Assembly: GCF_021608265.1 (NCBI RefSeq)
Contig: NZ_JAKIHP010000001.1
Coordinates: 496,001-560,000, forward strand
DNA length: 64,000 bases
Reading direction: 5' to 3'
Source of the DNA: Flavobacterium wongokense
GTDB taxonomy: Bacteria > Bacteroidota > Bacteroidia > Flavobacteriales > Flavobacteriaceae
The notes below the pieces were generated by a model. That model searched no databases. It saw only the letters and a list, made by a program, of their open reading frames with translations, and was not told the DNA's origin. Within the stretch, counting starts at the first letter, position 1, and each line of letters starts with the position of its first letter. Shown here in pieces: positions 6,935 to 54,404 of this stretch. Made by a program: the position numbers and the translations under genes.

Positions 6935-7162
6935 ATGAAAAAAGTATTTTTAAGTTTAGCTGTTATTGCTGCATTAACTGTAGTATCTTGTAAACAAGCT
7001 GATGCTAACGCTGAAGCTGCTGTTGATTCAACTGCTGTTGAGGCTGTTGACACTGCTGCTGCTGCTGTTGATACTGCTGCTGCTGCTGTTGATACTGCTG
7101 CTGCAAAAGTTGAAGACGCTAAAGAAGCTGTTGAAACTGCTAAAGAAGAAGTAAAAAAATAA
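6935..7162 (+). CDS. Ala-rich repetitive small lipoprotein
   Basis: The 75-residue protein has a lipoprotein signal ending in VVSC, with Cys at about residue 20. A very low complexity body follows: VDTAAAA is repeated three times (last copy VDTAAAK), then an Ala/Glu/Lys helix (VEDAKEAVETAKEEVKK). The repeats are built almost entirely from GCT codons, so the DNA carries in-frame 21-base repeats prone to slippage. Its composition resembles small envelope lipoproteins that form a single long helix. It has its own -7 element and possibly a sigma-54 promoter, plus a strong terminator. The function is not recognisable. Confidence 0.75.
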   Translation: MKKVFLSLAVIAALTVVSCKQADANAEAAVDSTAVEAVDTAAAAVDTAAAAVDTAAAKVEDAKEAVETAKEEVKK

Positions 7163-38237: not shown

Positions 38238-39233
38238 TTATAATTGTGTAATAGTATACGTCAATCCCGTAAAATCTGCAGTAACCAAATAAGTACCTGG
38301 TGCTGCAATCGGGATATTTCCACCTCCGTTATCCAAAGTTAGGTCGCCGCCATCATCACCATAATTAGTTCCCCAGTCATGGTTTAATCTGAATTTAAAG
38401 CTACCTGCACTCATGTTCATGATGATAGAATACTTCATAGTTACCGGATTCCAGTCCATAAGTGTATCTGATCCCCACCCTGTTGTTGTTGCATCACCAA
38501 TGATACCCCATGCATCCGGAATAGCGGTGATGGTATACGTATGGTTAACAAAATCAGCAACAATAGTATAGTTACCTGCAGTCACAGGAATATTACCACC
38601 ATTAGCTTCTAATGAAAGGTTGTTTCCATCATCACCATAGTTAGTAGTCCAGCTGTTGTCCAATCTGAATTTGAATTCACCTGTTGTCAAAGCCAACGAA
38701 ATTGAATACGTTTCAGTAATAGGGTTGAATGTCATCGCAGTACTATTGTCCCATCCTAGTGGTGTTGCACTACCGATGATTCCCCAGTTTGGCTGGTAAG
38801 GCGTAACTTTTAGTGTAAACGAGTTTGAAACTCCTGAAGGAGCACTGATACGAACGTCCATTAGTCCTTCAGTTCTAGGCTCTAACCCTAAGGCTTTAGC
38901 GGTTGAATCTAAAGTTCCGGCAGTAACATCCAAAAAGTGTTCAGTAGTAGTACCTATTGCTAACGGTGCAGCAAAATCGGTTCCTGCAACAGCAGCTTCA
39001 ACTGTATACGTTACATCAGTGCCTGTAGGGTTATCACTGTCAGTCCAAACAAAAGTAGTTGCAAGGTTACTTAATTTAGTCCCATCAACAACAATATTAA
39101 AACCTGAATTTGGCGTGAGTAGTTTCAAACCTGACTCAGGCACAACAGCTCCGGTATCCTGAACATCTTCCGTACAAGCCGAAAAAGAGAATAGTCCAAC
39201 AAAAGCTATTAATAATTTAATTGAGTTTTTCAT
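38238..39233 (-). CDS. SusE/SusF-like starch-binding outer-membrane lipoprotein (two binding modules)
   Basis: This 331-residue lipoprotein has the signal MKNSIKLLIAFVGLFSFSAC, with a lipidated Cys. A SusE-type N-terminal domain is followed by two tandem starch-binding modules. Each opens with WGIIG.AT..GW and contains FKFRL(D/N).(S/D)W.TNYGDDG; the first runs about residues 150-240 and the second about 240-331. The single module of the downstream neighbour (37451-38221) is clearly related, so this pair arose by gene and domain duplication. It lies 12 bases after susD in the same operon. Confidence 0.92.
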   Translation of the reverse strand: MKNSIKLLIAFVGLFSFSACTEDVQDTGAVVPESGLKLLTPNSGFNIVVDGTKLSNLATTFVWTDSDNPTGTDVTYTVEAAVAGTDFAAPLAIGTTTEHFLDVTAGTLDSTAKALGLEPRTEGLMDVRISAPSGVSNSFTLKVTPYQPNWGIIGSATPLGWDNSTAMTFNPITETYSISLALTTGEFKFRLDNSWTTNYGDDGNNLSLEANGGNIPVTAGNYTIVADFVNHTYTITAIPDAWGIIGDATTTGWGSDTLMDWNPVTMKYSIIMNMSAGSFKFRLNHDWGTNYGDDGGDLTLDNGGGNIPIAAPGTYLVTADFTGLTYTITQL

Positions 39234-39245
39234 AATGATCTTGTA

Positions 39246-40835
39246 TTAATATCCAGCATTCTGGGTTAAGTTCTTATTTGCCTTAAGTGAGTTGGCAGGA
39301 ATTGGGAATACTTTATATTTTTCGTCAATTGACGTACCATTCAAGCTGTTTCCTTTCCAAGCCCAGTTATAACCGGTAGTATACTTTCCGAAACGGATCA
39401 AATCCTGTCTTCTGTGTGCTTCCCAGTGTAATTCTCTCGCTCTTTCATCTAAAATGAATGCTAAGTTTGCAGCACCTACAGGAGCACTATTGGCTCTTGT
39501 TCTCAAGTCATTGATATAACCTAAAGAAGTTGCATCTGCATTTGGAGTTGAAGAAGCATTTGTAGCACCATCATTTCGCATCTGAGCTTCTGCATACATT
39601 AAATATACGTCAGCCAATCTGAACAATGGGAAATCAGTATCCACAAAAGTAGAGTTGATTCCGGCTACACCTGCTGATGTTTTGTTTGAGAATTTTGACA
39701 GGATAAAACCTTGGCTTTGCGTTGAAATATTCGCAATATCGATTGTTCTTGACCCTGCGTAAATAGTATTTCTGGTGTCTGTCGAAAATTCTGCTCCGTC
39801 AAACTTCTGAACCATTTGTTTTCTCAACCTTAAGGCTCCACCCCAACCTCCAACACCAAGTGCTGAACCGTTGTTTTCAAGAGAACCTACTTCACCATTG
39901 ATGATAACAGTAGTTGCACCATAGTTTTGGGTAACCACTCCATCAGACTGAAGCGTGAAAATCATTTCTGATGAGTTGTGGTTGTCTGCAGTGAAATTGT
40001 ACAGATAGTTTGGATTTAAGGTATATCCACCTGCAATAATGTTATTACATTGTGTCATACAGTCAGCATATCTTGCTGTTCCTGTATATACTTCTGCATT
40101 CAGGTAGATTTTAGCCAAAATCATTTGAGCTACAGCTTTATCCAATCTACCATACTCATTAGTTCTTGCTGGCTTCAAATCAGGCATAACTGCATTTAAT
40201 TCACTTTCGATAAAAGTAAATAATTGCGTTCTGTCGTATTGTGGCCCTGAAGAGTTGATTGGCGAAGTTTCATCATAGAACGGTGCTTTACCAAACAAAT
40301 CCATCATATTGTAATAAGCCATTGCTCTTAACACCCTAACTTCCTGTCTGTAAGTTGCAATGTCTGCCAAATCAGTTGGATTGGTAATGCCTCGGCCTGC
40401 CAGTTTTTGTGGCGTTGACTGTCTTAAAAAGTCATTTGCCAAAGCTACTTCAGCCATAGTCCTACTGAACATCCCCAACAAGATTGGGTTTGCTGCTCCC
40501 CAGGTATTTCTTTGTAATTCGGCAACACCTTCGTCACCTTCATAACTCCAAACTACCTCATCTGTAGTCAAATCCTGTAGGTACCAAAGGCATCTACCGT
40601 ATTGACTTGTTCCTGCGTCGATTCCCTGAAGGAATGAAGAACCCGCATCACGCGTACCGGTCAATGATAAATTACCATAAACACCCGCTAATGCTTGTTT
40701 GTATCCCTGTGGAGTCGAAAATAAAACTTCTGGATCGAGTAATGACTCATCCGGAGAAGCTACATCCATATCGCTTGTACAGGAAAAAAGTCCTGTCATT
40801 AAAGCGAGAGATAAAATTAATGTTACTTTTTTCAT
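39246..40835 (-). CDS. SusD/RagB family nutrient-binding lipoprotein
   Basis: This 529-residue outer-membrane lipoprotein has the signal MKKVTLILSLALMTGLFSC with lipidated Cys19. It forms the lid of the SusCD transporter and binds the glycan at the cell surface. Typical features are N-terminal helical repeats (LDPEVLFSTPQGYKQALAGVYGNL), the segment RVLRAMAYYNMMDLFGKAPFYDE, LAKIYLNAEVYTG, and the C-terminal end FILDERARELHWEAHRRQDLIRFGKY ... YKVFPIPANSL. It begins 10 bases after susC. The ligand is inferred to be starch-derived maltooligosaccharide from its neighbours. Confidence 0.96.
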   Translation of the reverse strand: MKKVTLILSLALMTGLFSCTSDMDVASPDESLLDPEVLFSTPQGYKQALAGVYGNLSLTGTRDAGSSFLQGIDAGTSQYGRCLWYLQDLTTDEVVWSYEGDEGVAELQRNTWGAANPILLGMFSRTMAEVALANDFLRQSTPQKLAGRGITNPTDLADIATYRQEVRVLRAMAYYNMMDLFGKAPFYDETSPINSSGPQYDRTQLFTFIESELNAVMPDLKPARTNEYGRLDKAVAQMILAKIYLNAEVYTGTARYADCMTQCNNIIAGGYTLNPNYLYNFTADNHNSSEMIFTLQSDGVVTQNYGATTVIINGEVGSLENNGSALGVGGWGGALRLRKQMVQKFDGAEFSTDTRNTIYAGSRTIDIANISTQSQGFILSKFSNKTSAGVAGINSTFVDTDFPLFRLADVYLMYAEAQMRNDGATNASSTPNADATSLGYINDLRTRANSAPVGAANLAFILDERARELHWEAHRRQDLIRFGKYTTGYNWAWKGNSLNGTSIDEKYKVFPIPANSLKANKNLTQNAGY

Positions 40836-40846
40836 ATTTCTTTTTT

Positions 40847-43795
40847 TTAAAATTTCACGTTAGCTCCAACTTGTAATTGGCGCTGTTTTGGATAAATTGT
40901 TAAATCAAGTCCATTTTTATCAACTTCAGGATCTAAGCCTGTGTATTCCGTAATGGTAAATACATTCTGGCATCCTACAAATAATCTAAGGGACGCTTTT
41001 CCTTCTAACCATTTCGGGAAGGTATACCCTACTGTAATGTTGTCCATTTTCAAATAAGATCCGTTTTCGATCCAAATATCTGACAAAGGCAGTTTACTAT
41101 CCGACTGGGTTACGAAATCTGTACTCAAAACATTCGTTGGAAGATTTTGAAGTGCATTACCTGCATTCAATCTCTGGTATTGTGCTCTACCTGCATTTAC
41201 ACCATTGAAGATTCGGTTTCCTAAACTTGCTCTCATATTGAAAGAGAAATCAAGGTTTTTGTAAGTCATGTTAGACGCGAATCCGAAAGTCACCTTAGGT
41301 GCATTGTTTTTGTAGATGTATTTGTCATCAGCGTTGATGATACCGTCACCATTTAAATCGGCATAAGCTCCTTCAATTGGTTTTCCTGCAGCATCATACA
41401 ATTGCTTGTAAACAAAATAAGAATTAGGTGCGTATCCAACCCTGTGGATCTGAACCTGTGTACCTGTACCGGTTACACTGTCCCCAGTCCTGATATCAGA
41501 AGTGTTGTAAAGCTCTGTGATTTTTCTGTCGAAATGTGACGTATTGAAATTCACGTTCCAGTTAAAGCTATTCGTTTTAACCGCTTCCACATTAAGGCCA
41601 AACTCAATTCCTTTAGTAACCATGCTTCCGATATTTTGGTAAACAAAGTTAGAGAAGTTACCTCCATCAGAAACCGGAGTAAGAGCCAAAAGGTCTTTTG
41701 AATCCTTATAGTAAACATCCAAAGTTCCACTTACCCTGTTTTTGGCAATTCCAAAATCAATTCCAGCGTTGTAAGTTGTAGTTTCCTCCCATTTGATGAT
41801 TTCATTAAATGCTCGGGAAACTGCAATTGGCACAGGAACGGTTCCAAAAGTAATTTGTGAAGTACTGGTTCCGGTATCATATTGTTGTAGGTAAACCAAT
41901 GAGTTATCCTCTCCGATATCCTGTTGCCCGGTAATACCCCATCCTAATCTCAGTTTCAAATCAGAAATTCTTCCGTTTTCTTTCAATAAATCCTTGTTCA
42001 GCTTCCAGGCAAAACCAACCGCAGGGAAGTTCCCGTAACGGTTTTCCTTAGCGAACCTTGAAGAACCATCTCTTCTGTAAGATAAGGTCAATAAATATTT
42101 GTCATCGTAGTTAAAGTTGGTTCTACCAAAGAAACCAACGGTTACTACAGGTACTTTATATTGTGCCACCGTCGGGATGTACCCTGGAGCTAAAATATTA
42201 TTTGACGCATAATTTCCTCTTTCTGATTTTTGGTAAGAGTAACCTGCTGTGAAATCAAATACTGTTTTACCAAAAGTTTTAGCGTATACTAAATAGGAGT
42301 CAAACAATTTAGTCCTTCTAATAGAAGTTGAATATTCATCATTTCCATAAGGAATATTGTTGTTTTGTCCTGCCGATGCAGCATCTGCACCTACAAGTTT
42401 GATCCTTCGACCTTGTCCTTCATCAAAACCACCATTTACTACCAAACGAAGTTCTGGGAAGAAATGGAATTTATAATCCATCTCGATGTTTCCAAAAATC
42501 CTGTCGTACAATCCTTTATCTGAAGTTTGTAACAATTCCGCAACCGGGTTTCTTGGTGTTTGTGGAATCAAAGAACCATCAGGGTTGTAGTATTCATGGA
42601 ATCCTCCGTATGGAGATGCCGGGTCATAAACCGGTTGTGTTGGGTCATAGTTAATCGCATTTCCTTCAACACCATTTGCAAAACGGTTTCTCTCATTAGA
42701 GTAGTTTGCATTGATCTTGAATTTCAAATGATCTTTAAATATAGATGGATTTAACGACACGCCCACTGTATTCCTGTTAAATGAATTGGTTAATCTCAAA
42801 CCTTCCATATAGGTGTTCCCTATAGTAAGTCTCGATGGAATCGCACCAAAAAGGTTTCCTCTTATCGATAGGTTGTTATCTACGTAATCTGTTCTTCTGT
42901 AGATTTCATTCTGCCAATCTGTATTTGCAGTACCTAAACCATTAAATGTAGGGCTCGTAGGAATTAACTCCGGATGTTGAGCAACAATGTCCCTGAACTG
43001 ATCTGCACTGAATACGTCAACCGTATTGATTACCTTACCTGAACCATACATAAAATTATAATCTACGGCTAAAGTCTTACCTCCTTTTTTGGTAGTAATA
43101 AGGATTACACCATTCGAAGCACGGGAACCGTAAATTGCAGTTGCCGAAGCATCTTTCAATACAGAGATAGATTCTACTGTACTTGGGTTAAGTGAAGCTA
43201 AAAATGAAGTCGCTCCCGTTCCGGTAGTATTGTCCAAAGGCAGACCATCGATAACAATCAATGGATCATTCGAAGCGAACAACGACGAACCTCCCCTAAT
43301 CCTGATGGTAGACCCTGATCCAGGAGATCCCTGAGTGTCAACAGTAACACCGGCAATCCTACCATTCAATAAGTTTTCTGTGGTAACATTCGAACCTTTG
43401 TTAAAATCCTTGGCTGCCAATACCGATACAGAACCGGTGGCATCCTTTTTCTTAACAGAACCATAACCAACCTGAACTACAACTTCCTGTAGCTGGTTAG
43501 CACTTTCCACTAAGCTGATATTAACAGATTTCTGGCCCGAAAAACCCACCGTCTGAGAGTCATATCCGATAAAAGAAAAGACGATTTTGTCTCCACTTTT
43601 AAGTCCTCCCAATTGGAATTTTCCGTCAAAATCTGTTGTGGTGCCGTTTGATGCACCTTGAACAGTTACGTTTACGCCTGGTAATGGCTGACCTGATTTG
43701 CTATCAGACACAACCCCACTTAAAGTGCTCTGAGCGAGAACACTAAAAGGCAGCAATAGGAATAAAAATAACAACTTTTTGTAAATTGTTTTCAT
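40847..43795 (-). CDS. SusC/RagA family TonB-dependent outer-membrane transporter
   Basis: This 982-residue TonB-dependent receptor imports oligosaccharides across the outer membrane using proton-motive energy. It has a signal peptide (FLFLLLPFSVLAQ), an N-terminal carboxypeptidase-D-like domain (STLSGVVSDSKSGQPLPGVNV, about 22-95), a TonB box region (LQEVVVQVGYG), and the SusC plug with IRIRGGSSLFASNDPLIVIDG. Then comes the long barrel, ending in QVGANVKF. It heads the minus-strand operon susC-susD-SusE/F-SusE/F. A palindromic operator lies about 110 bases upstream and the LacI regulator is divergent. Starch or maltodextrin is the inferred substrate. Confidence 0.96.
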   Translation of the reverse strand: MKTIYKKLLFLFLLLPFSVLAQSTLSGVVSDSKSGQPLPGVNVTVQGASNGTTTDFDGKFQLGGLKSGDKIVFSFIGYDSQTVGFSGQKSVNISLVESANQLQEVVVQVGYGSVKKKDATGSVSVLAAKDFNKGSNVTTENLLNGRIAGVTVDTQGSPGSGSTIRIRGGSSLFASNDPLIVIDGLPLDNTTGTGATSFLASLNPSTVESISVLKDASATAIYGSRASNGVILITTKKGGKTLAVDYNFMYGSGKVINTVDVFSADQFRDIVAQHPELIPTSPTFNGLGTANTDWQNEIYRRTDYVDNNLSIRGNLFGAIPSRLTIGNTYMEGLRLTNSFNRNTVGVSLNPSIFKDHLKFKINANYSNERNRFANGVEGNAINYDPTQPVYDPASPYGGFHEYYNPDGSLIPQTPRNPVAELLQTSDKGLYDRIFGNIEMDYKFHFFPELRLVVNGGFDEGQGRRIKLVGADAASAGQNNNIPYGNDEYSTSIRRTKLFDSYLVYAKTFGKTVFDFTAGYSYQKSERGNYASNNILAPGYIPTVAQYKVPVVTVGFFGRTNFNYDDKYLLTLSYRRDGSSRFAKENRYGNFPAVGFAWKLNKDLLKENGRISDLKLRLGWGITGQQDIGEDNSLVYLQQYDTGTSTSQITFGTVPVPIAVSRAFNEIIKWEETTTYNAGIDFGIAKNRVSGTLDVYYKDSKDLLALTPVSDGGNFSNFVYQNIGSMVTKGIEFGLNVEAVKTNSFNWNVNFNTSHFDRKITELYNTSDIRTGDSVTGTGTQVQIHRVGYAPNSYFVYKQLYDAAGKPIEGAYADLNGDGIINADDKYIYKNNAPKVTFGFASNMTYKNLDFSFNMRASLGNRIFNGVNAGRAQYQRLNAGNALQNLPTNVLSTDFVTQSDSKLPLSDIWIENGSYLKMDNITVGYTFPKWLEGKASLRLFVGCQNVFTITEYTGLDPEVDKNGLDLTIYPKQRQLQVGANVKF

Positions 43796-43826
43796 ACATT
43801 TTGTTTAGGTTAAAAAATAATTTTGT

Positions 43827-43847
43827 GCTTATACTTTTGACTTCGAA
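43827..43847. promoter_or_regulatory. Conserved leader motif, copy 1 (susC side)
   Basis: GCTTATACTTTT-G-ACTTCGAA on the plus strand lies 32 bases upstream of the susC start codon. Copy 2 (45367-45386), before the MFS gene, is identical except for one missing G. Because the genes diverge, the motif is antisense in the susC leader and sense in the MFS leader. Confidence 0.55.
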
Positions 43848-43903
43848 TGTTAAATTTATGTAAAAATTGGAACATACCTAATAAACAACAGTTAAATGTC
43901 TAC

Positions 43904-43917
43904 CGAAAACGTTTTCG
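43904..43917. promoter_or_regulatory. Probable LacI-family operator O1
   Basis: CGAAAACGTTTTCG is a perfect 14-base palindrome with the central CG step typical of LacI/GalR operators. It lies between divergent susC and lacI, so it could control both. Confidence 0.7.
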
Positions 43918-43982
43918 TGTTGAAAAGTTTTTGTTTTTTATAATTTATTAACGCTAAAATTGACGGAATAAAAATTATCAAC

Positions 43983-43990
43983 TACCTTTA
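43983..43990 (+). promoter_or_regulatory. -7-like element of the lacI-family gene
   Basis: TACCTTTA is one base from TAnnTTTG and lies 29 bases before the ATG at 44020. Confidence 0.4.
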
Positions 43991-44019
43991 TTCAGAAATT
44001 ACTATTTATCAAATTCACA

Positions 44020-45042
44020 ATGATGAGAAAAAAAGTCACTTTAAAACAAATTGCCAAAGAGCTTGACGTATCAATATCTACCGTTTCTAAATCATTGAAA
44101 AACAGCCTGGAAATAAGTGAAGACACCCGACAAAAAGTACAGGCATTTGCCAAACTTTACAACTACAAACCCAACAATATTGCGCTGAGTTTAAAAAACA
44201 AGAAAACCAAGACAATTTGTATTATTATTCCTGAAATTATCCATCATTTTTTTGCAACGGTAATCAGTGGCGTTGAAAATGTTGCCAATGAAAATGGCTA
44301 TAACGTATTGGTCTGCCTTTCTGACGAATCCTTTGACAAAGAGGTAATTAACATGGAAATGCTCGCCAACGGAAGCATAGACGGTTTTATCATGTCGCTT
44401 TCAAAGGAAACCCAGCAAAAAAAGGATTTCCACCACATCGTCGAAGTCATCAACCAGGGAATGCCTGTGGTAATGTTTGATCGCGTTACCAATGATATTT
44501 TGTGCGACAAAGTCATCATTGACGACAATCTGGCCGCCTTTGACGCGACACAATTCCTTATCGATAAAGGATTCAAAAAAATAGCCCTGATCACCACTGT
44601 AGACTATGTCAGCGTTGGAAAACTCCGAACCGAAGGCTATATAAAAGCATTAAAAAACAACGATTTAAAAGTAGATGAAAATCTAATCCTTCGAATTGAA
44701 GACACCGAAAACTTTGAATCTTCGATTGAGAATTTGATACTCAACAACGAACTCGACGCTATTTTTGCAGTCAACGAATTGTTTGCCGTTACGGCTATAA
44801 AATTGGCGCGCAAACACGACATCAAAGTTCCGGAAGCGCTTTCCATCGTAGGCTTTACCGACGGAATCATTTCAAAATATTCTACACCAAGCATTTCCAC
44901 CGTTAGTCAGAACGGGATTAAAATGGGAGGCAAAGCAGCCAAGATGCTTATCGAAAGGCTGGAATCGGAAGAGGAAGTCGAAGAACAATACAAAACCGAA
45001 GTCATCGAAACCGAATTGGTAGAACGCGAATCCACCAAATAA
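44020..45042 (+). CDS. LacI/GalR-family transcriptional regulator of the starch locus
   Basis: The 340-residue protein starts with a LacI helix-turn-helix (VTLKQIAKELDVSISTVSKSLKN, about residues 5-27) and the hinge-helix segment YKPNNIALSLKNKKTKTI. A periplasmic-binding-protein-like sugar-sensing core follows (IIPEIIHHFFATVISGVENVANENGYNVLV ... GMPVVMFDRV ... LDAIFAVNELFAVTAIKLARK ... LSIVGFTDG). It sits between the susC and MFS operons and a palindromic site lies in each regulatory region. Sequence does not say whether it represses or activates; the position of site O2, upstream of the MFS promoter, would suit activation. The ligand is probably maltose or a maltooligosaccharide. Confidence 0.93.
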   Translation: MMRKKVTLKQIAKELDVSISTVSKSLKNSLEISEDTRQKVQAFAKLYNYKPNNIALSLKNKKTKTICIIIPEIIHHFFATVISGVENVANENGYNVLVCLSDESFDKEVINMEMLANGSIDGFIMSLSKETQQKKDFHHIVEVINQGMPVVMFDRVTNDILCDKVIIDDNLAAFDATQFLIDKGFKKIALITTVDYVSVGKLRTEGYIKALKNNDLKVDENLILRIEDTENFESSIENLILNNELDAIFAVNELFAVTAIKLARKHDIKVPEALSIVGFTDGIISKYSTPSISTVSQNGIKMGGKAAKMLIERLESEEEVEEQYKTEVIETELVERESTK

Positions 45043-45114
45043 CCTCTATTTACTTACTATCAAAAAGCTGTTTGAGACCTGTTTCAACAGGATTTTATGC
45101 AGTATTGGTTCAGA

Positions 45115-45190
45115 GTGTGTCCGATGTGTGTGCGATGTGTGTCCGATGTGTGTCCGATGTTTTGGCTTTTTTATCGGACACACATCGGAC
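45115..45190. repeat. Four 11-bp tandem repeats merging into an 18-bp perfect inverted repeat
   Basis: GTGTGTCCGAT is repeated four times without gaps (45115-45158; the second unit has one change). The segment 45141-45158 then pairs perfectly over 18 bp with 45173-45190 around a 14-base T-rich loop. It lies about 70 bases after the lacI stop codon. A terminator role is possible, but no T tract follows the stem. It makes up part of the 403-base gap 45043-45445; the rest of that gap holds operator O2, the MFS promoter and its leader. Confidence 0.8.
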
Positions 45191-45275
45191 TCATCCCGCA
45201 ATGATTACGCTCACAAGGTGAATAAAGCATTGATATTGCCGGATTTGGATTGGTTAATACGGTTAGTTATCAACA

Positions 45276-45289
45276 AAAAAACGTTTTCG
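45276..45289. promoter_or_regulatory. Probable LacI-family operator O2
   Basis: AAAAAACGTTTTCG matches 12 of 14 positions of palindrome O1 (43904-43917), with the central AAAACGTTTTCG intact. It lies about 56 bases upstream of the MFS -7 element. Confidence 0.6.
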
Positions 45290-45344
45290 TAACCCGCTTT
45301 CGTTAATTTTTTTAATCAAAAAGACCTCAACTTAAATTCTTTAT

Positions 45345-45352
45345 TATCTTTA
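45345..45352 (+). promoter_or_regulatory. -7-like element of the MFS-pgmB-GH65 operon
   Basis: TATCTTTA, one base from TAnnTTTG, gives an expected transcript start near 45359 and a leader of about 87 bases. Confidence 0.45.
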
Positions 45353-45358
45353 CGACAA

Positions 45359-45420
45359 TTATCAAAGCTTATACTTTTACTTCGAACTAAAAAAAGTTTT
45401 GATAAGCACACCGCTTATCG
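45359..45420 (+). promoter_or_regulatory. MFS leader: leader motif copy 2 and competing hairpins
   Basis: The leader holds the motif GCTTATACTTTTACTTCGAA (45367-45386). Two mutually exclusive pairings exist: TTATCAAA (45359-45366) with TTTGATAA (45398-45405), or GATAAGC (45401-45407) with GCTTATC (45413-45419). Shared bases 45401-45405 mean only one can form at a time. Confidence 0.4.
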
Positions 45421-45445
45421 TATTATAAATCAGTAAATTACGATA

Positions 45446-46975
45446 ATGGAAAAGCGTAAATTAAGTTTCTGGCAAATCTGGAATATGAGTTTCGGATTTC
45501 TGGGGATACAAATGGGTTTTGCTCTGCAGAATTCAAATGTTAGTAGGATATTCCAAACTCTAGGCGCAAAAATTGATGACATCCCAATCCTTTGGGTGGC
45601 TGCTCCTTTAACCGGATTAATTATTCAACCCATCATTGGCTATTTCTCAGACCGGACCTGGACCAGGCTCGGCCGAAGAAAACCTTATTTCCTTGTCGGA
45701 GCCATTTTAGCATCCGCAGCCTTGTTCATCATGCCCAATTCACCCGTTTTGTGGTTTGCAGCCGGAATGTTATGGATAATGGACGCTTCCATTAATGTTT
45801 CTATGGAACCTTTCAGGGCTTTTGTGGGAGACAATCTTCCCGAAAAGCAACGCACCTTAGGTTTTGCAACGCAAAGTTTCTTTATCGGGATTGGCGCTTA
45901 CGTAGCTTCCAAACTGCCTTTGATTTTAACCCATTTAAATGTTGACAATACGGCACCGCTTGGGATTATCCCCGATTCGGTGAAGTATTCGTTCTACATT
46001 GGTGGTGTTGCTTTCATCGTAACCGTTCTTTGGACTGTAATTACCTCCAAGGAATATTCACCAGAGGAAATGGAAGCGTTTGAGAAACACAAGGAAACCG
46101 AATTCAAAAAAGAGGTGCATTCTCCGGAATGGTTTTCAAAAAACGGGACTTCCCATTTAAGAAAAGGGCTTTTATTTTTAGCCATCGGGATTTCCTTTTC
46201 GTTCCTGATTTATGAGTTGGATTTAAAGAAAGATTTATATGTTCTTTCCTTAGGAATGATCAGCCTTGGAGGATTGGCAATGACCATTTCGGGATTAATG
46301 CAGCGTGCGAATAATACCGAAAATGGTTTTGTAACCATCATGAATGATTTTCAGTTTATGCCAAAAATCATGAAACAGTTGGCATGGGTGCAATTCTTCT
46401 CGTGGTTTGCGCTTTTTTCTATGTGGATTTACACCACGCTTGCCGTTACGCAACACATTTACGGAACTACTGATACGACTTCAGAAGCGTATAATACCGG
46501 AGCAAACCAGGTTGGCGAAATGTTTGCCAACTACAACCTGATTGCTGCGATTGCCGCATTCCTGCTGCCATTATTGGCAAAATACACCAGCAGGAAATTT
46601 ACGCATTTCATTGCTTTAACCTGTGGTGGCTTTGGTTTGATTTCCATTTATTTCATTTCAGAACCAACCGTTTTCACCATGGAATGGCTGCCAATGATTG
46701 GTGTTGGAATTGCCTGGGCGAGTATCCTTTCCATTCCGTATGCAATGCTTTCCGGAGCATTACCTTCCAGCAAAATGGGTTACTATATGGGAGTTTTCAA
46801 CTTCTTTATTGTAATCCCGCAATTGGTTGCTGCTTCCATTTTAGGATTTTTAGTTTCTAAATTCTTTAACAGCGAACCTATTTATGCCCTATTGATTGGT
46901 GGCACGTCAATGATTCTAGCAGGAATCATTTCGCTTACCATAAATGACAAATCGAAAATTATAATTAATGACTAA
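45446..46975 (+). CDS. MFS transporter for maltose/maltodextrin uptake
   Basis: This 509-residue inner-membrane protein has about 12 membrane segments and belongs to the sugar-porter-like MFS group seen beside maltose genes in Bacteroidota. It begins LSFWQIWNMSFGFLGIQMGFALQNSNVSRIFQTLGA and has the loop motif DRTWTRLGRRKPYFLVG between segments 2 and 3. A large cytoplasmic loop follows the sixth segment. It heads the plus-strand operon and overlaps pgmB by 8 bases. With the cytoplasmic phosphorylase encoded two genes downstream, it is the likely route of maltose across the inner membrane; substrate is inferred from context. Confidence 0.9.
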   Translation: MEKRKLSFWQIWNMSFGFLGIQMGFALQNSNVSRIFQTLGAKIDDIPILWVAAPLTGLIIQPIIGYFSDRTWTRLGRRKPYFLVGAILASAALFIMPNSPVLWFAAGMLWIMDASINVSMEPFRAFVGDNLPEKQRTLGFATQSFFIGIGAYVASKLPLILTHLNVDNTAPLGIIPDSVKYSFYIGGVAFIVTVLWTVITSKEYSPEEMEAFEKHKETEFKKEVHSPEWFSKNGTSHLRKGLLFLAIGISFSFLIYELDLKKDLYVLSLGMISLGGLAMTISGLMQRANNTENGFVTIMNDFQFMPKIMKQLAWVQFFSWFALFSMWIYTTLAVTQHIYGTTDTTSEAYNTGANQVGEMFANYNLIAAIAAFLLPLLAKYTSRKFTHFIALTCGGFGLISIYFISEPTVFTMEWLPMIGVGIAWASILSIPYAMLSGALPSSKMGYYMGVFNFFIVIPQLVAASILGFLVSKFFNSEPIYALLIGGTSMILAGIISLTINDKSKIIIND

Positions 46976-47621
46976 AAAAGCATTCATCTTCGACCTCGAT
47001 GGCGTTATTGTAGACACCGCTAAATACCATTTTTTGGCGTGGCAGAAAATAGCGGCCGATTTGGGAATCGAATTTACACCAGAACACAACGAAGAATTAA
47101 AAGGCGTTAGCCGCGTCCGTTCTTTGGAAATTATTTTGAAGCTCGGGAATATTGAAGCCTCAGAAGAAAGCAAAAACAAATGGCTGCACCAAAAAAACGA
47201 AGATTACCTCTCTTATATCAAACACATGGACGAAAGCGAACTGCTTCCGGGCGTTATGAATATTTTAGAGTTTATTAAAGAGAAAAAACAACTGATTGCC
47301 TTGGGCTCGGCAAGTAAAAATGCCCGCCTTATTTTAGAGAAGGTAAAGATTTTGCATATGTTCGATGCCATTGTTGATGGAAATGACGTAACCAATGCAA
47401 AACCAAATCCTGAGGTTTTCGTCAGAGGCGCAAAATTATTAAACGTGAGCAACGAAAACAGCATGGTTTTCGAAGATGCCGTAGCCGGAATCCAGGCTGC
47501 CAACATTGCCAACATGACCAGCATCGGAATTGGCGATGAGAAAATATTACATGAAGCAAAATACAACTTTAAAGATTTTACGTTTATGGACACTTCGTTT
47601 ATCGAAGCCTTCATAAAATAA
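46968..47621 (+). CDS. pgmB: Beta-phosphoglucomutase
   Basis: This 217-residue HAD-superfamily enzyme converts beta-glucose-1-phosphate to glucose-6-phosphate in the cytoplasm. Motif I is FDLDGVIVDTAKYHFLAW, with the Asp nucleophile at residue 9 and the acid/base Asp at 11. The cap segment ELKGVSRVRSLEIIL is typical of this enzyme rather than general HAD phosphatases. Motif II is LGSASKNA, and motifs III/IV are KPNPEVF and VFEDAVAGIQAA. It overlaps the MFS gene by 8 bases and is followed closely by the GH65 gene, whose product makes its substrate. Confidence 0.95.
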   Translation: MTKKAFIFDLDGVIVDTAKYHFLAWQKIAADLGIEFTPEHNEELKGVSRVRSLEIILKLGNIEASEESKNKWLHQKNEDYLSYIKHMDESELLPGVMNILEFIKEKKQLIALGSASKNARLILEKVKILHMFDAIVDGNDVTNAKPNPEVFVRGAKLLNVSNENSMVFEDAVAGIQAANIANMTSIGIGDEKILHEAKYNFKDFTFMDTSFIEAFIK

Positions 47622-47651
47622 AATTGAATGATCAAAGGAAAAAACAACAAC

Positions 47652-49955
47652 ATGAATCAAGATTATATCAAACCAGACAACTGGTCAATCATAGAAGAAG
47701 GATTTGACTTAGACCAGGTTAAATCCTCCGAAAGCCTTTTCAGCATTGGAAATGGTGCCATGGGACAACGTGCCAATTTTGAAGAAAAATACTCTGGAGC
47801 AACATTCCAGGGAAGCTACATAGCCGGAATTTATTACCCTGACAAAACCAAAGTGGGCTGGTGGAAAAACGGTTATCCTGAATATTTCGCCAAAGTATTG
47901 AATGCGCCAAACTGGATCGGAATCGACATTGAAATCAACGGTGAAAATCTCGATTTGGCTGCCTGTAAGGAAGTGAAAAACTTCCGCCGCGAGCTGAATA
48001 TGAAAGAAGGAATCTATGACCGTTCGTTCGAGGCAACTTTGCAGAACGGCACACAAATAGCAGTAAACGTTCGTCGTTTCCTTTCTTTGGATTTGGACGA
48101 AGTGGGTGTAATCAATTATGAAATCACACCGCTTAACAATGATGCCAAAATCCTTTTCAAACCGTATGTTGATGCCGGAGTGCACAACGAAGACGCCAAC
48201 TGGGAAGAGAAATTTTGGGAACCATTAAACGTTACCAATTCAGGAAATGAAGCTTTTGTTACGGCAAGAACGTTCAAAACGCATTTCACGGCTACTACCT
48301 TTATGCAGAATACGATTTTGCTGAATGGCAAAAACCAAAACGCCTTGCCGTCAAATGTTGAATCATCAAAAGAAAAAGTCCAGTTTACCTATGAAGCCGC
48401 TGCGGCTAAAGGACAAACTGCTTCGATACAAAAACTGGGTGGTTATACGGTTTCGATGAACCACAAAAATACGCAGTTAGCAGCTGAAAATGTCATCAAA
48501 GAAGCATTACAGGAAGGCTATGAAAACCTATTGATTCAACAAATCAGTGAATGGGCGAAAATCTGGGAAATGAGCGATATCACCATTGAAGGCGATGTAA
48601 AGGCGCAACAGGGAATCCGTTTCAATATTTTCCATTTGAACCAAACGTATCTAGGAAAGGATTCGCGTTTGAATATTGGCCCAAAAGGATTTACCGGAGA
48701 AAAATACGGCGGTTCGACTTATTGGGATACCGAAGCCTATTGCATTCCGTTTTATATGGCGACCAAAGACCAGCATGTTGCAAGGAATTTGTTGGCTTAC
48801 CGCTACAATCATTTGGAAAAAGCCATAGAAAATGCCAAGAAATTAGGTTTTAAAAATGGCGCAGCTTTATATCCGATGGTTACGATGAATGGTGAGGAAT
48901 GCCATAACGAATGGGAAATTACCTTTGAGGAAATCCATAGGAATGGCGCTATCGCTTTTGCGATTTTCAACTATTACCGATTCACCGGTGACTACTCCTA
49001 TATTCCCGAAAAAGGTTTGGAAGTCCTAATTGGAATTGCGCGTTTCTGGCATCAGCGAGCTACTTTTTCTACCCATAAAAACCAATATGTGATTTTGGGT
49101 GTTACAGGCCCGAATGAATACGAAAACAACGTCAACAATAATTTCTATACAAATTATTTGGCCAAATGGTGTATCGATTATGCCATTGAACAAATTGAAC
49201 GCGTGGAAAAAGAATACAGTTCGGATTTTGCCCGAATCATGAGCAAAGTTAAATTGGATGCAACTGAAATCGGACATTGGAAAAAAGTCGCCGACCATAT
49301 GTATTTTCCATTTTCGGAAGAACACGATGTGTATCTACAGCAAGACGGCTTCCTAGATAAAGAACTCGTGAAAGTCCACGATTTGGATAAATCACAACGT
49401 CCAATCAATCAAAAATGGTCGTGGGACAGAATCCTTCGTTCGCCTTACATCAAACAGGCCGATACTTTACAGGGATTCTATTTCTTTGAAGACCATTTCA
49501 GCAAGGAACAACTGGAAAAGCACTTCGATTTTTATGAGCCGTTTACTGTTCACGAAAGTTCACTTTCTCCTTGCGTGCACTCGATTCAGGCGGCGACTCT
49601 AGGAAGAATGGAACAAGCGTATACCTTCTATCTACGAACTTCGCGTTTGGATTTGGATGACTACAACAAGGAAGTTGAGGAAGGCCTTCACATCACTTCG
49701 ATGGCGGGAACCTGGATGAGCATCGTGGAAGGTTTTGGCGGAATGCGTGTCAAAAATGACGAACTGCATTTTGAACCAAGAATCCCAAAAGACTGGGATG
49801 GTTATTCCTTTAAAATCAATTTCAGGAACCAAATATTGAAAGTTTCCGTGCATCAGAACGAAACCAAATTTGTACTTGAGGGTGAAACTCCAATTACCGT
49901 TTATGTAAATGGAACAGCGGTTTCTGTCGAGCCAAATAGCCTGGTGACTGTTTAA
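47652..49955 (+). CDS. GH65 family phosphorylase, probably maltose phosphorylase
   Basis: This 767-residue cytoplasmic enzyme (no signal peptide) splits an alpha-glucosyl disaccharide with phosphate, giving glucose and beta-glucose-1-phosphate. The N-terminal beta-sandwich (SLFSIGNGAMGQRANFEEKYSG) is followed by an (alpha/alpha)6 barrel. The segment ECHNEWEITFEEIHRNGAIAFA carries the general-acid Glu, and the phosphate-site region HESSLSPCVHSI comes later. The start at 47652 (MNQDYIKPDNWS) is preferred; an in-frame ATG at 47628 is possible. Its partner pgmB is 6 to 30 bases upstream. Trehalose or kojibiose phosphorylases share the fold, but the starch setting favours maltose. Confidence 0.92.
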   Translation: MNQDYIKPDNWSIIEEGFDLDQVKSSESLFSIGNGAMGQRANFEEKYSGATFQGSYIAGIYYPDKTKVGWWKNGYPEYFAKVLNAPNWIGIDIEINGENLDLAACKEVKNFRRELNMKEGIYDRSFEATLQNGTQIAVNVRRFLSLDLDEVGVINYEITPLNNDAKILFKPYVDAGVHNEDANWEEKFWEPLNVTNSGNEAFVTARTFKTHFTATTFMQNTILLNGKNQNALPSNVESSKEKVQFTYEAAAAKGQTASIQKLGGYTVSMNHKNTQLAAENVIKEALQEGYENLLIQQISEWAKIWEMSDITIEGDVKAQQGIRFNIFHLNQTYLGKDSRLNIGPKGFTGEKYGGSTYWDTEAYCIPFYMATKDQHVARNLLAYRYNHLEKAIENAKKLGFKNGAALYPMVTMNGEECHNEWEITFEEIHRNGAIAFAIFNYYRFTGDYSYIPEKGLEVLIGIARFWHQRATFSTHKNQYVILGVTGPNEYENNVNNNFYTNYLAKWCIDYAIEQIERVEKEYSSDFARIMSKVKLDATEIGHWKKVADHMYFPFSEEHDVYLQQDGFLDKELVKVHDLDKSQRPINQKWSWDRILRSPYIKQADTLQGFYFFEDHFSKEQLEKHFDFYEPFTVHESSLSPCVHSIQAATLGRMEQAYTFYLRTSRLDLDDYNKEVEEGLHITSMAGTWMSIVEGFGGMRVKNDELHFEPRIPKDWDGYSFKINFRNQILKVSVHQNETKFVLEGETPITVYVNGTAVSVEPNSLVTV

Positions 49956-50014: not shown

Positions 50015-50130
50015 CGTCAGTTCGAGTGTTTTTTATGGAATGCAATGGAATAAAAAATGTATCGAGAACCGTCGTTTGCAGAAAGCTTCTCGATACATTT
50101 TTGGCTTCGCCAAAAACACTCGAAGTGACG
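50015..50130. repeat. Nested inverted-repeat element (about 116 bp)
   Basis: The outer arms, CGTCAGTTCGAGTGTTTTT (50015-50033) and its complement at 50112-50130, differ at one position. Inner arms AAAAATGTATCGAGAA (50053-50068) and its exact complement (50087-50102) sit inside them. A further small hairpin TTGGCTTCGCCAA lies at 50101-50112 (one T counted twice with the inner arm). No coding capacity is evident. Confidence 0.8.
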
Positions 50131-50187
50131 ATATACAATATAAACGACTATAAAGCCTTAATCCTATTTATGGTAAAAACAAATACA

Positions 50188-52020
50188 ATGAAAAAACTAC
50201 TCTTCTCCCTACTGATTTCTATCTCTGCCTTTGCGCAGATTGACCGTGTTGAACCTCCGTTTTGGTATTCGGGAATGACACTGTCAAAAGTGCAGATTCT
50301 ATTTTATGGCAAGAACATCGCGCAATATGACGTTGCCGTTTCCAACAACATTGTCATCGACAACATCAAAAAAACAGAAAATCCCAATTACGTTTTTGTA
50401 ACGATTGATACTAAAAATGCTCCGGTTTCTGAGCTGACCTTTAGTTTCAAAAGCAAAGGCAAAGTGGCGCTTACGCAAAAGTATGAGCTCAAACAAAGAA
50501 GGCAAAATTCCAAATTCCGAAAAGGTTATGACAGTTCGGATATGATTTATTTGATTATGTCGGACCGATTTGCCAATGGAAATCCAAAGAATGACAGTGA
50601 TAATTCATTAAATGAAAAAGCCGATCGAAGCAATCCCAACGGAAGGCACGGTGGCGATATCGAAGGCATCATTAAAAACCTGGATTATATCAAAGAGCTT
50701 GGCGCAACAGCCGTTTGGCCAACACCGCTTTGCGAAGACAACGATCCAAAAGGTTCGTACCACACTTATGGGCAGTCGGATGTTTATAAGATTGATCCGC
50801 GATTTGGGACCAATGAAGATTACCTGCGTTTGAGCGCCGAACTCCACAGCCGTGGGATGAAAAATATTTTGGATTATGTGACCAATCATTGGGGTTACCA
50901 GCATTGGATGTACAAGGATTTGCCGACTTACGACTGGGTGCACCAATTCCCGGGTTATTCGCAATCGAATTACCGGATGACTACGCAGTTTGACCCGAAT
51001 GCTTCAGACATTGATGCCAAAAACTGCATGGACGGCTGGTTTGTGCCTTCGATGCCCGATTTGAACCAGTCGAATCCTTTGGTTTTGAATTACCTGATCC
51101 AAAATGCAATCTGGTGGATTGAATACGCCGATTTGGATGGTTTCCGTGTGGATACCTATTCGTATAACGACAAGGAAGGAATCTCAAAATGGACCAAAGC
51201 AATCCTTGACGAATATCCAAATTTCAATATTGTAGGCGAAGTCTGGATGCACAACCAGGCACAAATGGCTTATTGGCAGAAAGACAGTAAGATTGGCGCC
51301 ATTGAAAGTTACAATTCCTATTTGCCGTCGGTGATGGATTTTACGTTGCACGATGCTTTTGGTTCGGTTTTCAATGAAGATAAAGGCGAATGGGACAAAG
51401 GAATGATCAAAGTCTATGACAATTTTGTCAACGATTTCCTGTATCCAAACATTAATAACATCTTGGTTTTTGCCGAAAACCACGACACCAATCGTTTTAA
51501 CTCAGCCTATAAAAAAGACTTCAGGAAATACCAAATGGCTATGACGCTTTTGGCAACAATACGTGGAATCCCGCAGTTGTATTACGGTTCTGAAATTGGA
51601 ATGGATGGTGATAAAGGCAAAGGCGATGGCGATATCCGCCATGATTTCCCCGGAGGTTGGAATGGCGACAGCAACAATGCATTTACGAAGGCCGGAAGAA
51701 ATGAGGAACAAAACAAATTCTATGATTTTACTTCCAAACTTTTCAATTGGAGAAAATCAAAGGACGTGATTCATTTTGGCAAAATGAAGCACTATATTCC
51801 GGTAAATAATGTGTATGTTTATTTCCGTTATAACGAAAAGGAAAGTGTGATGGTCGTTATCAATAACAGTAACGAAACCCAGACTTTCAAAACCAATCGT
51901 TTTGCCGAAAGCATTCAAAATCATTTGGGCGGAAAGGACATTTTCTCAGGAAAAATGATTGATTTGAAAAACGATGTTTCCATCGAAGGAAAATCGGTAT
52001 TGGTATTAGAATTAAAATAA
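50188..52020 (+). CDS. GH13 cyclomaltodextrinase/neopullulanase-like (SusA-type) enzyme
   Basis: This 610-residue periplasmic enzyme is chosen to start at 50188, giving a signal peptide (MKKLLFSLLISISAFAQ); the longer frame from 50026 runs through the inverted-repeat element. Residues about 20-110 (IDRVEPPFWYSGM...VQILFYGKNIA) match the cyclomaltodextrinase N-terminal domain. The GH13 barrel has region I ILDYVTNHWG, region II GFRVDTYSY (nucleophile Asp), region III VGEVW (Glu) and region IV AENHDTNR. A C-terminal cyclomaltodextrinase-type domain follows. It probably linearises or shortens imported maltodextrins, as SusA does. It is the first gene of a three-glycosidase unit. Confidence 0.94.
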   Translation: MKKLLFSLLISISAFAQIDRVEPPFWYSGMTLSKVQILFYGKNIAQYDVAVSNNIVIDNIKKTENPNYVFVTIDTKNAPVSELTFSFKSKGKVALTQKYELKQRRQNSKFRKGYDSSDMIYLIMSDRFANGNPKNDSDNSLNEKADRSNPNGRHGGDIEGIIKNLDYIKELGATAVWPTPLCEDNDPKGSYHTYGQSDVYKIDPRFGTNEDYLRLSAELHSRGMKNILDYVTNHWGYQHWMYKDLPTYDWVHQFPGYSQSNYRMTTQFDPNASDIDAKNCMDGWFVPSMPDLNQSNPLVLNYLIQNAIWWIEYADLDGFRVDTYSYNDKEGISKWTKAILDEYPNFNIVGEVWMHNQAQMAYWQKDSKIGAIESYNSYLPSVMDFTLHDAFGSVFNEDKGEWDKGMIKVYDNFVNDFLYPNINNILVFAENHDTNRFNSAYKKDFRKYQMAMTLLATIRGIPQLYYGSEIGMDGDKGKGDGDIRHDFPGGWNGDSNNAFTKAGRNEEQNKFYDFTSKLFNWRKSKDVIHFGKMKHYIPVNNVYVYFRYNEKESVMVVINNSNETQTFKTNRFAESIQNHLGGKDIFSGKMIDLKNDVSIEGKSVLVLELK

Positions 52021-54400: not shown

Positions 54401-54404
54401 AATC

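Follow-up and report, generated by a model that had tools for sequence, protein, structure and literature searches.

The susC and MFS operons and their shared motif

The window (the whole analysed stretch of 64,000 nucleotides, positions 496,001 to 560,000 of contig NZ_JAKIHP010000001.1 of Flavobacterium wongokense) contains two divergent starch operons, one led by a susC-like gene and the other by an MFS sugar transporter gene, with a LacI-family regulator gene between their leaders. Genes were assigned from open reading frames and Pfam (the regulator from Pfam), and promoter boxes from sequence and from the box position of -12..-5 relative to the start given in the promoter passage of PMC9723704, with the genus spacing added for susC. 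The operator role of the two LacI-type sites is putative.

37451-38221 and 38238-39233: SusE-type genes, after susD
39246-40835: susD, after susC
40847-43795, minus strand: susC-like TonB-dependent receptor gene, ATG at 43795
43796-43846, minus strand: predicted susC 5' UTR, 51 nt, from the predicted start
43827-43846, minus strand: susC pairing segment, predicted +1 to +20 of the mRNA, UCGAAGUCAAAAGUAUAAGC (sequence, co-evolution, cofolding)
43846, minus strand: predicted susC +1, from the -7 box
43851-43858, minus strand: predicted susC -7 promoter box TAAATTTA
43904-43917: putative LacI-type operator CGAAAACGTTTTCG, upstream of susC
44020-45042, plus strand: LacI-family regulator gene
45278-45290: putative LacI-type operator AAAACGTTTTCGT, upstream of the MFS gene
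45345-45352, plus strand: predicted MFS -7 promoter box TATCTTTA, at the consensus position
45357, plus strand: predicted MFS +1, from the -7 box
45367-45386, plus strand: MFS pairing segment, the 3' end of the 5' arm of helix H1 plus its loop (sequence, folding, cofolding)
45446-46975, plus strand: MFS sugar transporter gene, ATG at 45446
46968-47621: HAD hydrolase gene, downstream of MFS
47628-49955: GH65 gene, downstream of MFS
50026-52020: cyclomaltodextrinase-like amylase gene, downstream of MFS
52025-54400: GH31 gene, downstream of MFS
54390-56054: alpha-amylase gene, downstream of MFS

The initial annotation had described one motif in both leaders, and this two-place repeat was confirmed: GCTTATACTTTTACTTCGAA, the exact 20-base copy, lies on the plus strand at 45367-45386 in the MFS leader, and GCTTATACTTTTGACTTCGAA, with one extra G, on the plus strand at 43827-43847 in the susC leader. 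Since susC is read from the minus strand and the MFS gene from the plus strand, each leader RNA is the reverse complement of the other over the motif, as had been claimed, except for one bulged C (at +8 of the susC segment), and the window pair has a cofolding ddG of -14.8 kcal/mol. The complementarity begins at the predicted first or second nucleotide (+1/+2) of the susC mRNA, and the susC ATG follows 31 nt downstream of the segment; among genus susC leaders having the -7 box, 116 of 134 show a spacing of 6 nt from the box to GAAG. Transcript starts downstream of the motifs, which would speak against a role as RNA, are not what the boxes predict: both starts are placed at or upstream of the motifs, so that both copies fall inside the leaders.

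Within the window by itself, an equally good match on either strand arose in 7 of 5000 dinucleotide shuffles of both intergenic regions, a probability of about 0.001 that is suggestive, not decisive; it is the comparative data below that are decisive in establishing the motif pair as real. An own-genome motif search allowing 0-2 extra bases found no place beyond these two. A gapless genome search with TCGAAGTAAAAGTATAAGC (at most 3 mismatches) returned four places, one being the MFS copy and the other three each carrying 3 mismatches, whereas the reversed control pattern returned six; the susC copy is missing from this list because its alignment requires a gap, and since the control pattern yields more places, the genome holds no third copy above chance. 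The initial annotation had found no third copy by eye. A separate sRNA gene carrying the segment was rejected, there being two genome copies only and others at chance level. The motif as a LacI operator, which the initial annotation had already discounted, was likewise rejected: it is non-palindromic, and the operators are separate, upstream, of different sequence and 56 and 76 bases away. Rfam 15, searched over 43700-45600, gave 10 matches at E<=5 and none at gathering score, and a known riboswitch or other Rfam RNA was rejected; the top sub-threshold matches (45126-45205) were miRNA models on a low-complexity hairpin.

Complementarity of the leaders in Flavobacterium and in other genera

The LacI regulator is matched at E<=1e-130 in 314 of 398 Flavobacterium genomes, and the gene order susC-lacI-MFS is kept. 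We compared 150 genus loci, a non-random set taken from among the best LacI matches listed (30 + 116 + 4 places), and the leader alignment proposed in the initial annotation showed that the susC and MFS leaders remain complementary throughout the genus. Identity-only local alignment over 85 nt placed 24 of 139 cognate pairs above the 99th percentile of shuffles and was dropped, as cognate pairs could not be separated from the AT-rich background; duplex energy, partner exchange and anchored cores were therefore used instead. The predicted duplex energy of own pairs had a median of -26.3 kcal/mol, compared with -11.6 kcal/mol when susC was shuffled, and 127 of the 139 pairs fell below the 1st percentile of shuffles, in a set that still included L050 and L146 with a wrong susC start. 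Exchanging partners within the genus cost 11.6 kcal/mol on average, with a positive cost in 93% of genome pairs. On the LacI protein tree, with Fitch parsimony, 117 both-side changes were counted against 35.7 expected (87 to matching letters); a gap was counted as a letter here, so these event counts are approximate and can be inflated by shifts. Towards its middle, the genus duplex frequently has mismatches or bulges (match 0.68-0.82). Differences between the copies were G:U-compatible in 34 cases and of the mirror type in 44, giving no wobble asymmetry.

The leader element follows the regulator: at E<=0.001 in 37 genus genomes, it was present in 22 of 23 with a LacI orthologue and in 0 of 14 without. 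Two loci are true exceptions, L013, in which the MFS element is lost and the susC segment degraded, and L237 (genome G030), in which LacI, susC and MFS are present and the leader has decayed. The latter, picked for its lack of an element match and outside all locus counts, scores 16.6 bits, elsewhere, with R1, a model of the MFS leader built from 45 genus leaders picked by script for diversity, and a TTCGAAGTAAAA core persists on both of its sides. L050 and L146 were rejected as exceptions, their susC start being mis-assigned and the motif present, as was L083, which was merely poorly aligned. L090 and L119 carry inserts and retain both segments.

Beyond the genus, the leaders were complementary at all 54 testable loci from 53 other genera, so that the pair is present in related starch loci, where its absence would have pointed to chance. 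The match had a median of 17/18 and reached at least 16 at 45 of the 54 loci; the four control regions per locus reached 15 at most. Because these loci were chosen by R1 on the MFS side, the susC side is the only unselected test there. On the LacI protein tree of these loci, again with Fitch parsimony, 53 same-branch both-side changes were found (3.94 expected), 47 of them to matching letters; in these match and tree counts, the short copies L157, L158, L160, L162 and L172 were replaced by L183-L186, and L187 has no susC side. Of 1381 partner exchanges compared among the 54 loci, 1118 lost base pairs and 1 gained them. The complementarity is thus family-wide and kept by concerted change: within one family, 16 of 17 core columns changed in concert, and rewritten motifs are retained on both sides (e.g., L161, L175 and L201). 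Five susC leaders were predicted beforehand from the MFS side, of which three were right within 1-2 bases and one partly; for the fifth, the contig ended. Among the loci examined, we found no genome with susC and MFS far apart. Copy differences in other genera were G:U-compatible versus mirror at 11:0 with ends trimmed to the match and 15:8 untrimmed; since the asymmetry is clear only once ends are trimmed, we count it as weak support for RNA pairing. The first genus wobble count left out L013, L050, L083, L146 and L074 (score under 13), and the 34:44 and 11:0 counts left out L013, L050, L146, L083, L022, L142 and any row lacking a usable core, with duplicate cores counted once.

Predicted mutually exclusive helices in the MFS leader

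The MFS leader carries three predicted helices, all on the plus strand:

45357-45448: whole MFS leader element, predicted +1 to AUG (R1 match 95.5 bits)
45359-45370: H1 5' arm, TTATCAAAGCTT (folding, genus conservation)
45394-45405: H1 3' arm, AAGTTTTGATAA (folding, genus conservation)
45401-45407: H2 5' arm, GATAAGC, overlapping the H1 3' arm (conservation in 45 sequences, RNAalifold)
45413-45419: H2 3' arm, GCTTATC (conservation in 45 sequences, RNAalifold)
45415-45422: H3 5' arm, TTATCGTA, overlapping the H2 3' arm (genus conservation)
45439-45446: H3 3' arm, TACGATAA, its last base the A of the MFS AUG (genus conservation)

Since their arms overlap, full H1 and H2 are mutually exclusive, as are H2 and H3, and the helices are conserved in this arrangement across species of the genus. 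Over the 45 genus sequences, paired cells amount to 88.1% for H1, 100% for H2 and 95.3% for H3; all 7 H2 pairs can form in 45/45 sequences, and H2 is the RNAalifold consensus fold. Compensatory both-side changes are few (2, 1 and 1 pairs across H1, H2 and H3; covariation term -0.17), and the three predicted helices rest on conservation with little covariation. The only other R1 match in the own genome is weak (E 0.49) and lies at the same place on the opposite strand. The window leader folds moderately better than its shuffles (z -1.75). In other genera, judged by eye, H1 and H2 are retained and H3 is often different; many have a start-codon helix of another sequence with little H2 overlap.

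With H1 removed in folding, the probability of H2 rose from 0.13 to 0.59 in the genus (up in 123 of 134 leaders) and from 0.12 to 0.76 in other genera (up in 39 of 41); H3 was lowered in the genus. Start-codon accessibility increased from 0.455 to 0.537 in the genus (with increases in 102 and decreases in 8 of 140) and from 0.407 to 0.473 in other genera (with increases in 30 and decreases in 5 of 51), a predicted gain that is modest. The genus folding of H1 loss kept 112 of 139 leaders, and the other-genus folding of H1 removal 51 of 54. Blocking the pairing segment alone in other genera barely moved H2 (0.20 to 0.24; increases in 17 and decreases in 8 of 43), so a switch there would require a long duplex opening all of H1.

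Proposed pairing of the two messages

The in-step change of both stretches suggests direct control of one message by the other, and we consider it probable that the susC mRNA, by its 5' end, base-pairs in trans with the switch in the MFS leader, moving it from H1 to H2; activation of MFS translation is the outcome we favour. Without susC mRNA, the MFS leader would fold as H1 plus H3, H1 holding the pairing segment within its 5' arm and loop. Pairing in trans over about 17-20 bp would open H1, upon which H2 could form, using part of the H1 3' arm, and H3 would be weakened; in the genus, H3 lies over the MFS start codon and shares part of H2, and its weakening might free the start codon, so that the transporter would be made when susC mRNA is present. 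We infer physical pairing in the cell, the opening of H1 and, from folding, the direction; activation of MFS translation has about an even chance of being the true one. It is conceivable, at slightly less than even chances, that the susC mRNA serves family-wide as both message and trans activator, its first 17-20 nt being read by a switch in the MFS mRNA, with inner-membrane sugar import translated only while the outer-membrane porin message is present.

The pairing may be real and have another outcome, namely repression of MFS or an effect chiefly on the susC mRNA through protection of, or attack on, its 5' end; we regard this as the less likely course, though one to be taken seriously. The susC segment lies at the predicted extreme 5' end, where pairing can alter mRNA stability, the MFS start codon gains little accessibility, and known trans-acting mRNAs mostly stabilise their partners, according to the relevant passage of PMC9217812. 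Against this, structure and switch-like features are found on the MFS side; losing H1 shifts most genomes towards H2 and reduces H3 in the genus; and, in the window, the segment lies 31 nt upstream of the susC start codon. The initial annotation had left two readings side by side, pairing of the leader RNAs and a protein site bound in either orientation. Concerted changes, the start at the predicted susC +1/+2 and the conserved hairpin of the MFS copy strongly support the former, and the latter is disfavoured. We judge it improbable that both promoters carry one asymmetric site, oppositely oriented, for a DNA-binding protein, with the co-variation reflecting shifts of specificity: both copies do lie just downstream of -7 boxes, the genus differences lack a wobble bias (34 versus 44) and the untrimmed bias of other genera is moderate (15 versus 8), but inside a single family concerted changes affected 16 of the 17 core columns, the rewritten motif of L201 included, and the block is non-palindromic and variable in length and spacing. 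Functionless direct repeats flanking lacI and kept alike by gene conversion are very unlikely; the copies are direct repeats on the plus strand about 1.5 kb apart, yet the matching tract spans just 17-20 bp, ends sharply and is flanked by unrelated sequence, and copies still match where inserts lie beside lacI (L090, L119/L236). Chance likeness of AT-rich leaders, to which the in-window probability and the few pairs separated by identity alone might point, has a negligible probability and is refuted by the comparative data, with 54/54 matching loci in other genera and both-side changes far above expectation inside and outside the genus.

If the proposed pairing is true, outer-membrane starch uptake (SusC) would be tied to the inner-membrane step (MFS) by a co-evolving pair of 5' leaders without any sRNA gene. 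RNA pairing at the 5' region of the susC mRNA of a polysaccharide-utilisation locus is described for FopS and GibS of Bacteroides thetaiotaomicron, and FopS, in the relevant passage of the same source (PMC11697453), is encoded by separate sRNA genes, whose products pair with the start region of susC and repress it. Here, the partner would be another mRNA's leader, and the susC message would be bound at its predicted 5' end; no separate sRNA gene of this type was found in the genome, and the segment ends 31 nt upstream of the ATG in the window, not at the start region. The cis-encoded sRNAs of Bacteroides PULs that Cao et al. described in 2016 are reportedly also antisense to the susC leader region, but encoded opposite the susC region itself, whereas here the complement lies in the other operon's leader, 1.5 kb away.

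Trans-acting mRNAs include irvA-gbpC (Streptococcus mutans), hly-prsA (Listeria), and gdpS-sarS and vigR-folD/isaA (Staphylococcus aureus). In the passages of PMC9217812 and PMC5419742 that treat such mRNAs, the acting part is a 5' UTR, CDS or 3' UTR and the target a CDS or 5' UTR, which is mostly stabilised, and vigR is given in the former as the fourth bacterial case to its authors' knowledge. As in these, part of one coding message would pair with a second mRNA and alter its fate, and selected complementarity beyond chance between the two predicted leaders was found; unlike in these, complementary 5' leaders of neighbouring operons, a multi-helix partner and family-wide co-evolution are involved. 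The family-wide concerted changes are independent evidence for selection keeping an mRNA-to-mRNA pairing. Control of one mRNA by another is known and rare, and its leader-to-leader, family-wide form appears to be new.

In trans-activated leader switches, natural sRNA activators melt an inhibitory hairpin, as do synthetic toehold and taRNA riboregulators. Here too, a trans RNA would open an inhibitory fold and free a start codon, but the part of activator would fall to a functionally linked transporter's mRNA instead of a dedicated sRNA. The successive, mutually exclusive helices of the MFS leader resemble those of trp-type attenuators; in contrast to these, inspection by eye showed no terminator U-run following H2, and the last helix covers the start codon.

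A motif pair in the leaders of two divergent operons

The initial annotation had described a 20-base motif in two copies, and both are present: one at 45367-45386, in the MFS leader, and one at 43827-43847, with one G more, in the susC leader. No third copy had been noticed by eye, and none stood out above chance: a genome-wide search found the motif twice, and a looser search returned only chance-level places besides the known pair (four hits, one of them the MFS copy, where a reversed control pattern had six). Shuffles of both intergenic regions gave an equally good match in 7 of 5000 trials; the window by itself is therefore only suggestive of a motif pair beyond chance. ORF analysis confirmed that the flanking genes read in opposite directions, which is why the two leaders are reverse complements at the motif, as had been stated. 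A LacI-family gene sits between them.

43795, leftward: start of susC, in an operon of susC, susD and SusE-type genes
45446, rightward: start of the MFS gene, in an operon MFS-HAD-GH65-amylases-GH31

At 45115-45200, 3' of lacI, four 11-bp tandem units (GTGTGTCCGAT) are followed by their inverted complement; the resulting long hairpin, perhaps the lacI terminator, is the source of sub-threshold miRNA matches in Rfam. Rfam 15 gave no match at gathering score. At locus L056, lacI is followed by another kind of short tandem array, with units like CCCGAGATACTC. Tandem repeats with a 21-base period (a multiple of three) at 7016-7148 and 926-1068 are probably repetitive coding sequence.

Distribution and co-evolution within the genus

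In a set of 100 genomes (the own one plus others of the genus and the order), 61 had a LacI match at E<=0.001; at E<=1e-130, 314 of 398 genus genomes had one. Our genus set comprised 150 loci (30 + 120) drawn from the best LacI matches listed. The order susC-lacI-MFS occurs in the first 30, save L009, which ends short of susC; the susC side was available in 143 of the 150 loci, the MFS side in 146 and both in 139. By eye, the element was seen in all of 141 distinct MFS leaders but that of L013, some with a changed helix (in L072 the last helix, H3, is disrupted). R1, a model of the whole element built from 45 MFS leaders, matches 53 of 57 loci. As for the four misses, the contigs of L056 and L120 stop shortly after lacI, the element of L119 sits farther on, and in L013 the MFS element is gone and the susC segment also degraded, with the susC, lacI and MFS genes still there. 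Scanned against 37 whole genus genomes (E<=0.001), R1 hit 22 of the 23 that have the LacI orthologue and none of the 14 that lack it; in the one exception, G030 (locus L237), the MFS leader has decayed, the TTCGAAGTAAAA core survives on both sides, and the three genes are still present. About 1 kb of extra sequence lies between susC and lacI in L090 (G411), and between lacI and MFS in L119/L236 (G248); both pairing segments are still in place at each.

The duplex energy of own leader pairs was -26.3 kcal/mol at the median, compared with -11.6 when susC leaders were shuffled, and lay under the 1st percentile of the shuffles in 127 of 139 loci. Exchanging partners between two genomes cost 11.6 kcal/mol on average, the cost being positive in 93% of comparisons. 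Alignment by identity alone did not separate own pairs (just 24 of 139 over the 99th percentile), because the leaders are AT-rich. Across 142 aligned genus loci the two sides match at 0.93-1.0 in the TCGAAGT block, then at 0.68-0.82 in ten columns, at 0.53 and 0.46, and finally at 0.31 and 0.13. On the LacI tree of the genus there were 117 cases of change on both sides within one branch, where 35.7 were expected, and 87 of these led to matching letters; 292 changes fell in susC alone and 232 in MFS alone.

Other genera and blind predictions

At E<=0.001, R1 matches 57 of 249 family genomes, two in the genus of the window (own included) and the other 55 in 54 genera; all 26 matches among 246 genomes sampled across the order fall within the same family. 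The susC side played no part in choosing these loci. A LacI gene adjoins the element in all 28 first-returned other-genus loci and a recognised MFS gene in 27 of them; after 32 more stretches were added, both sides were available in 54 of the 55 genomes (53 genera). The best 18-nt match had a median of 17 and a minimum of 14 (at least 16 in 45 of 54), whereas for four control regions per locus the medians were 12-13 and no value exceeded 15. Foreign pairs reached a median of 15, just two letters below the 17 of own pairs, because many genera have one motif in common. In the 17-column core 96.7% of cells are pairable, a share that shuffling of partners lowered to 86.8% (89.3% being the highest value in 1000 shuffles); partner exchange lost pairs in 1118 of 1381 comparisons, left 262 unchanged and gained in one. 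Joint changes of both sides, on a single branch and in a single column, numbered 53 where 3.94 were expected, and 47 of them led to matching letters; 30 changes fell in susC alone and 17 in MFS alone.

The susC-side sequences expected in five loci (L183-L187) were written down before those sides were fetched. Agreement was to within one or two bases for L184 (GAGAGGTAAAAATATAA, one G:U), L185 (TAGAAGTGAAAATATA) and L183 (GAGAAGTAAAAATAA), the last being below the usual length, as foretold. For L186 the first 13 bases agree and the last part does not; the sequence of L187 stops short of susC. The strongly divergent pair of L201, GTGTAAGAAGAAG and GTGTACGAAGAAG, keeps its complementarity. The possible pairing of the two leader RNAs raised in the initial annotation thus finds computational backing, as complementarity and co-evolution, both in the genus and beyond it.

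Probable RNA pairing, the MFS leader helices and a possible switch

The segments might act as a DNA site or as pairing RNAs, and RNA pairing predicts transitions of the G:U-compatible rather than the mirror kind. Other genera showed 11 G:U-compatible against 0 mirror transitions and 9 transversions with ends trimmed to match (42 distinct cores), and 15 against 8 with 21 transversions untrimmed (37 distinct cores); the genus showed no bias (34 against 44; first count 38 against 42). The wobble test therefore weakly supports RNA in other genera and is silent in the genus. Position also favours RNA. The susC -7 box (TAnnTTT[AG]), a predicted promoter box missing in 5 of 139 genus leaders, precedes GAAG by 6 nt in 116 of the 134 that bear it; in 44 of 54 leaders from other genera it stands 4-5 nt ahead of the base where pairing begins. 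With such a box placed at -12 to -5 from the transcript start, as described in PMC9723704, pairing would begin at the predicted susC +1 or +2. Box-to-helix spacing on the MFS side varies more than that on the susC side. Transcript starts downstream of the motifs had been held to exclude an RNA role; the predicted susC start falls where pairing starts, and the predicted MFS +1 coincides in the window with the start of H1, the first of three successive helices.

H1, 45359-45370 with 45394-45405: pairing segment in the 5' arm and loop
H2, 45401-45407 with 45413-45419: bases in common with the 3' arm of H1
H3, 45415-45422 with 45439-45446: bases in common with H2; extends to the AUG

In 45 aligned genus sequences 88.1% of cells are pairable in H1, 100% in H2 and 95.3% in H3, with few changes on both sides of the helices. 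Minimum-energy folds contain, by eye, H1 and H3 in most genus leaders folded, that of the window included, whereas H2 is what the alignment gives as consensus, a result to be expected were both states important. The MFS leader of the window folds just moderately better than shuffles (z -1.75); the complex of the two window leaders is 14.8 kcal/mol better than the folds apart, and for other genera this gain has a median of 13.2, which drops to 7.9 when the partners are foreign. When the pairing segment alone was blocked in 112 genus leaders, the predicted probability of H2 rose from 0.09 to 0.51, with a gain in 100 of 109, and that of H3 fell from 0.83 to 0.46, with a loss in 97 of 109; in other genera this had hardly any effect on H2 (0.20 to 0.24). 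Removal of the whole of H1 raised H2 to 0.59 in the genus and 0.76 in other genera, and made the start codon more accessible (0.455 to 0.537 and 0.407 to 0.473, respectively). In many other genera (L155-L214) the start-codon helix is, by eye, of the AATAGTAT...ATACTATT kind and not TTATCGTA...TACGATAA; the last helix has therefore been replaced and H1 and H2 kept, which makes the final switch step less certain there.

Structure near the start codon is described as tuning translation in F. johnsoniae (PMC6847099), FopS sRNAs as repressing susC translation in Bacteroides (PMC11697453), and trans-acting mRNAs as rare (PMC9217812, PMC5419742). No paper on such a susC-MFS leader pair was among the matches listed, by title and start of abstract, which is weak evidence because the search covered open-licence papers and the best matches listed. 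Computation shows the complementarity, co-evolution and predicted positions of the two segments; pairing in the cell and its activating direction are what we infer. Most probably, starch would derepress the locus, as the LacI-type operators suggest, and susC mRNA would be made; its 5' end would pair with the loop of H1 in the MFS leader, opening that helix and letting H2 form, and H3 would be left without its 5' arm, so that the MFS start codon would become free.

The putative LacI-type operator upstream of susC (43904-43917) has two main forms in the genus leaders of L003-L032, CGAAAACGTTTTCG and CTATCACGTTTTCGTA, and several MFS upstream regions carry ACTACAACCTTGTAGT instead. A second LacI-family gene, outside the window (G000:C1:1164234-1165247, own genome), is 54% identical to that of the window, and its relatives, at about 48-56% identity, occur in many genus genomes among the matches listed.
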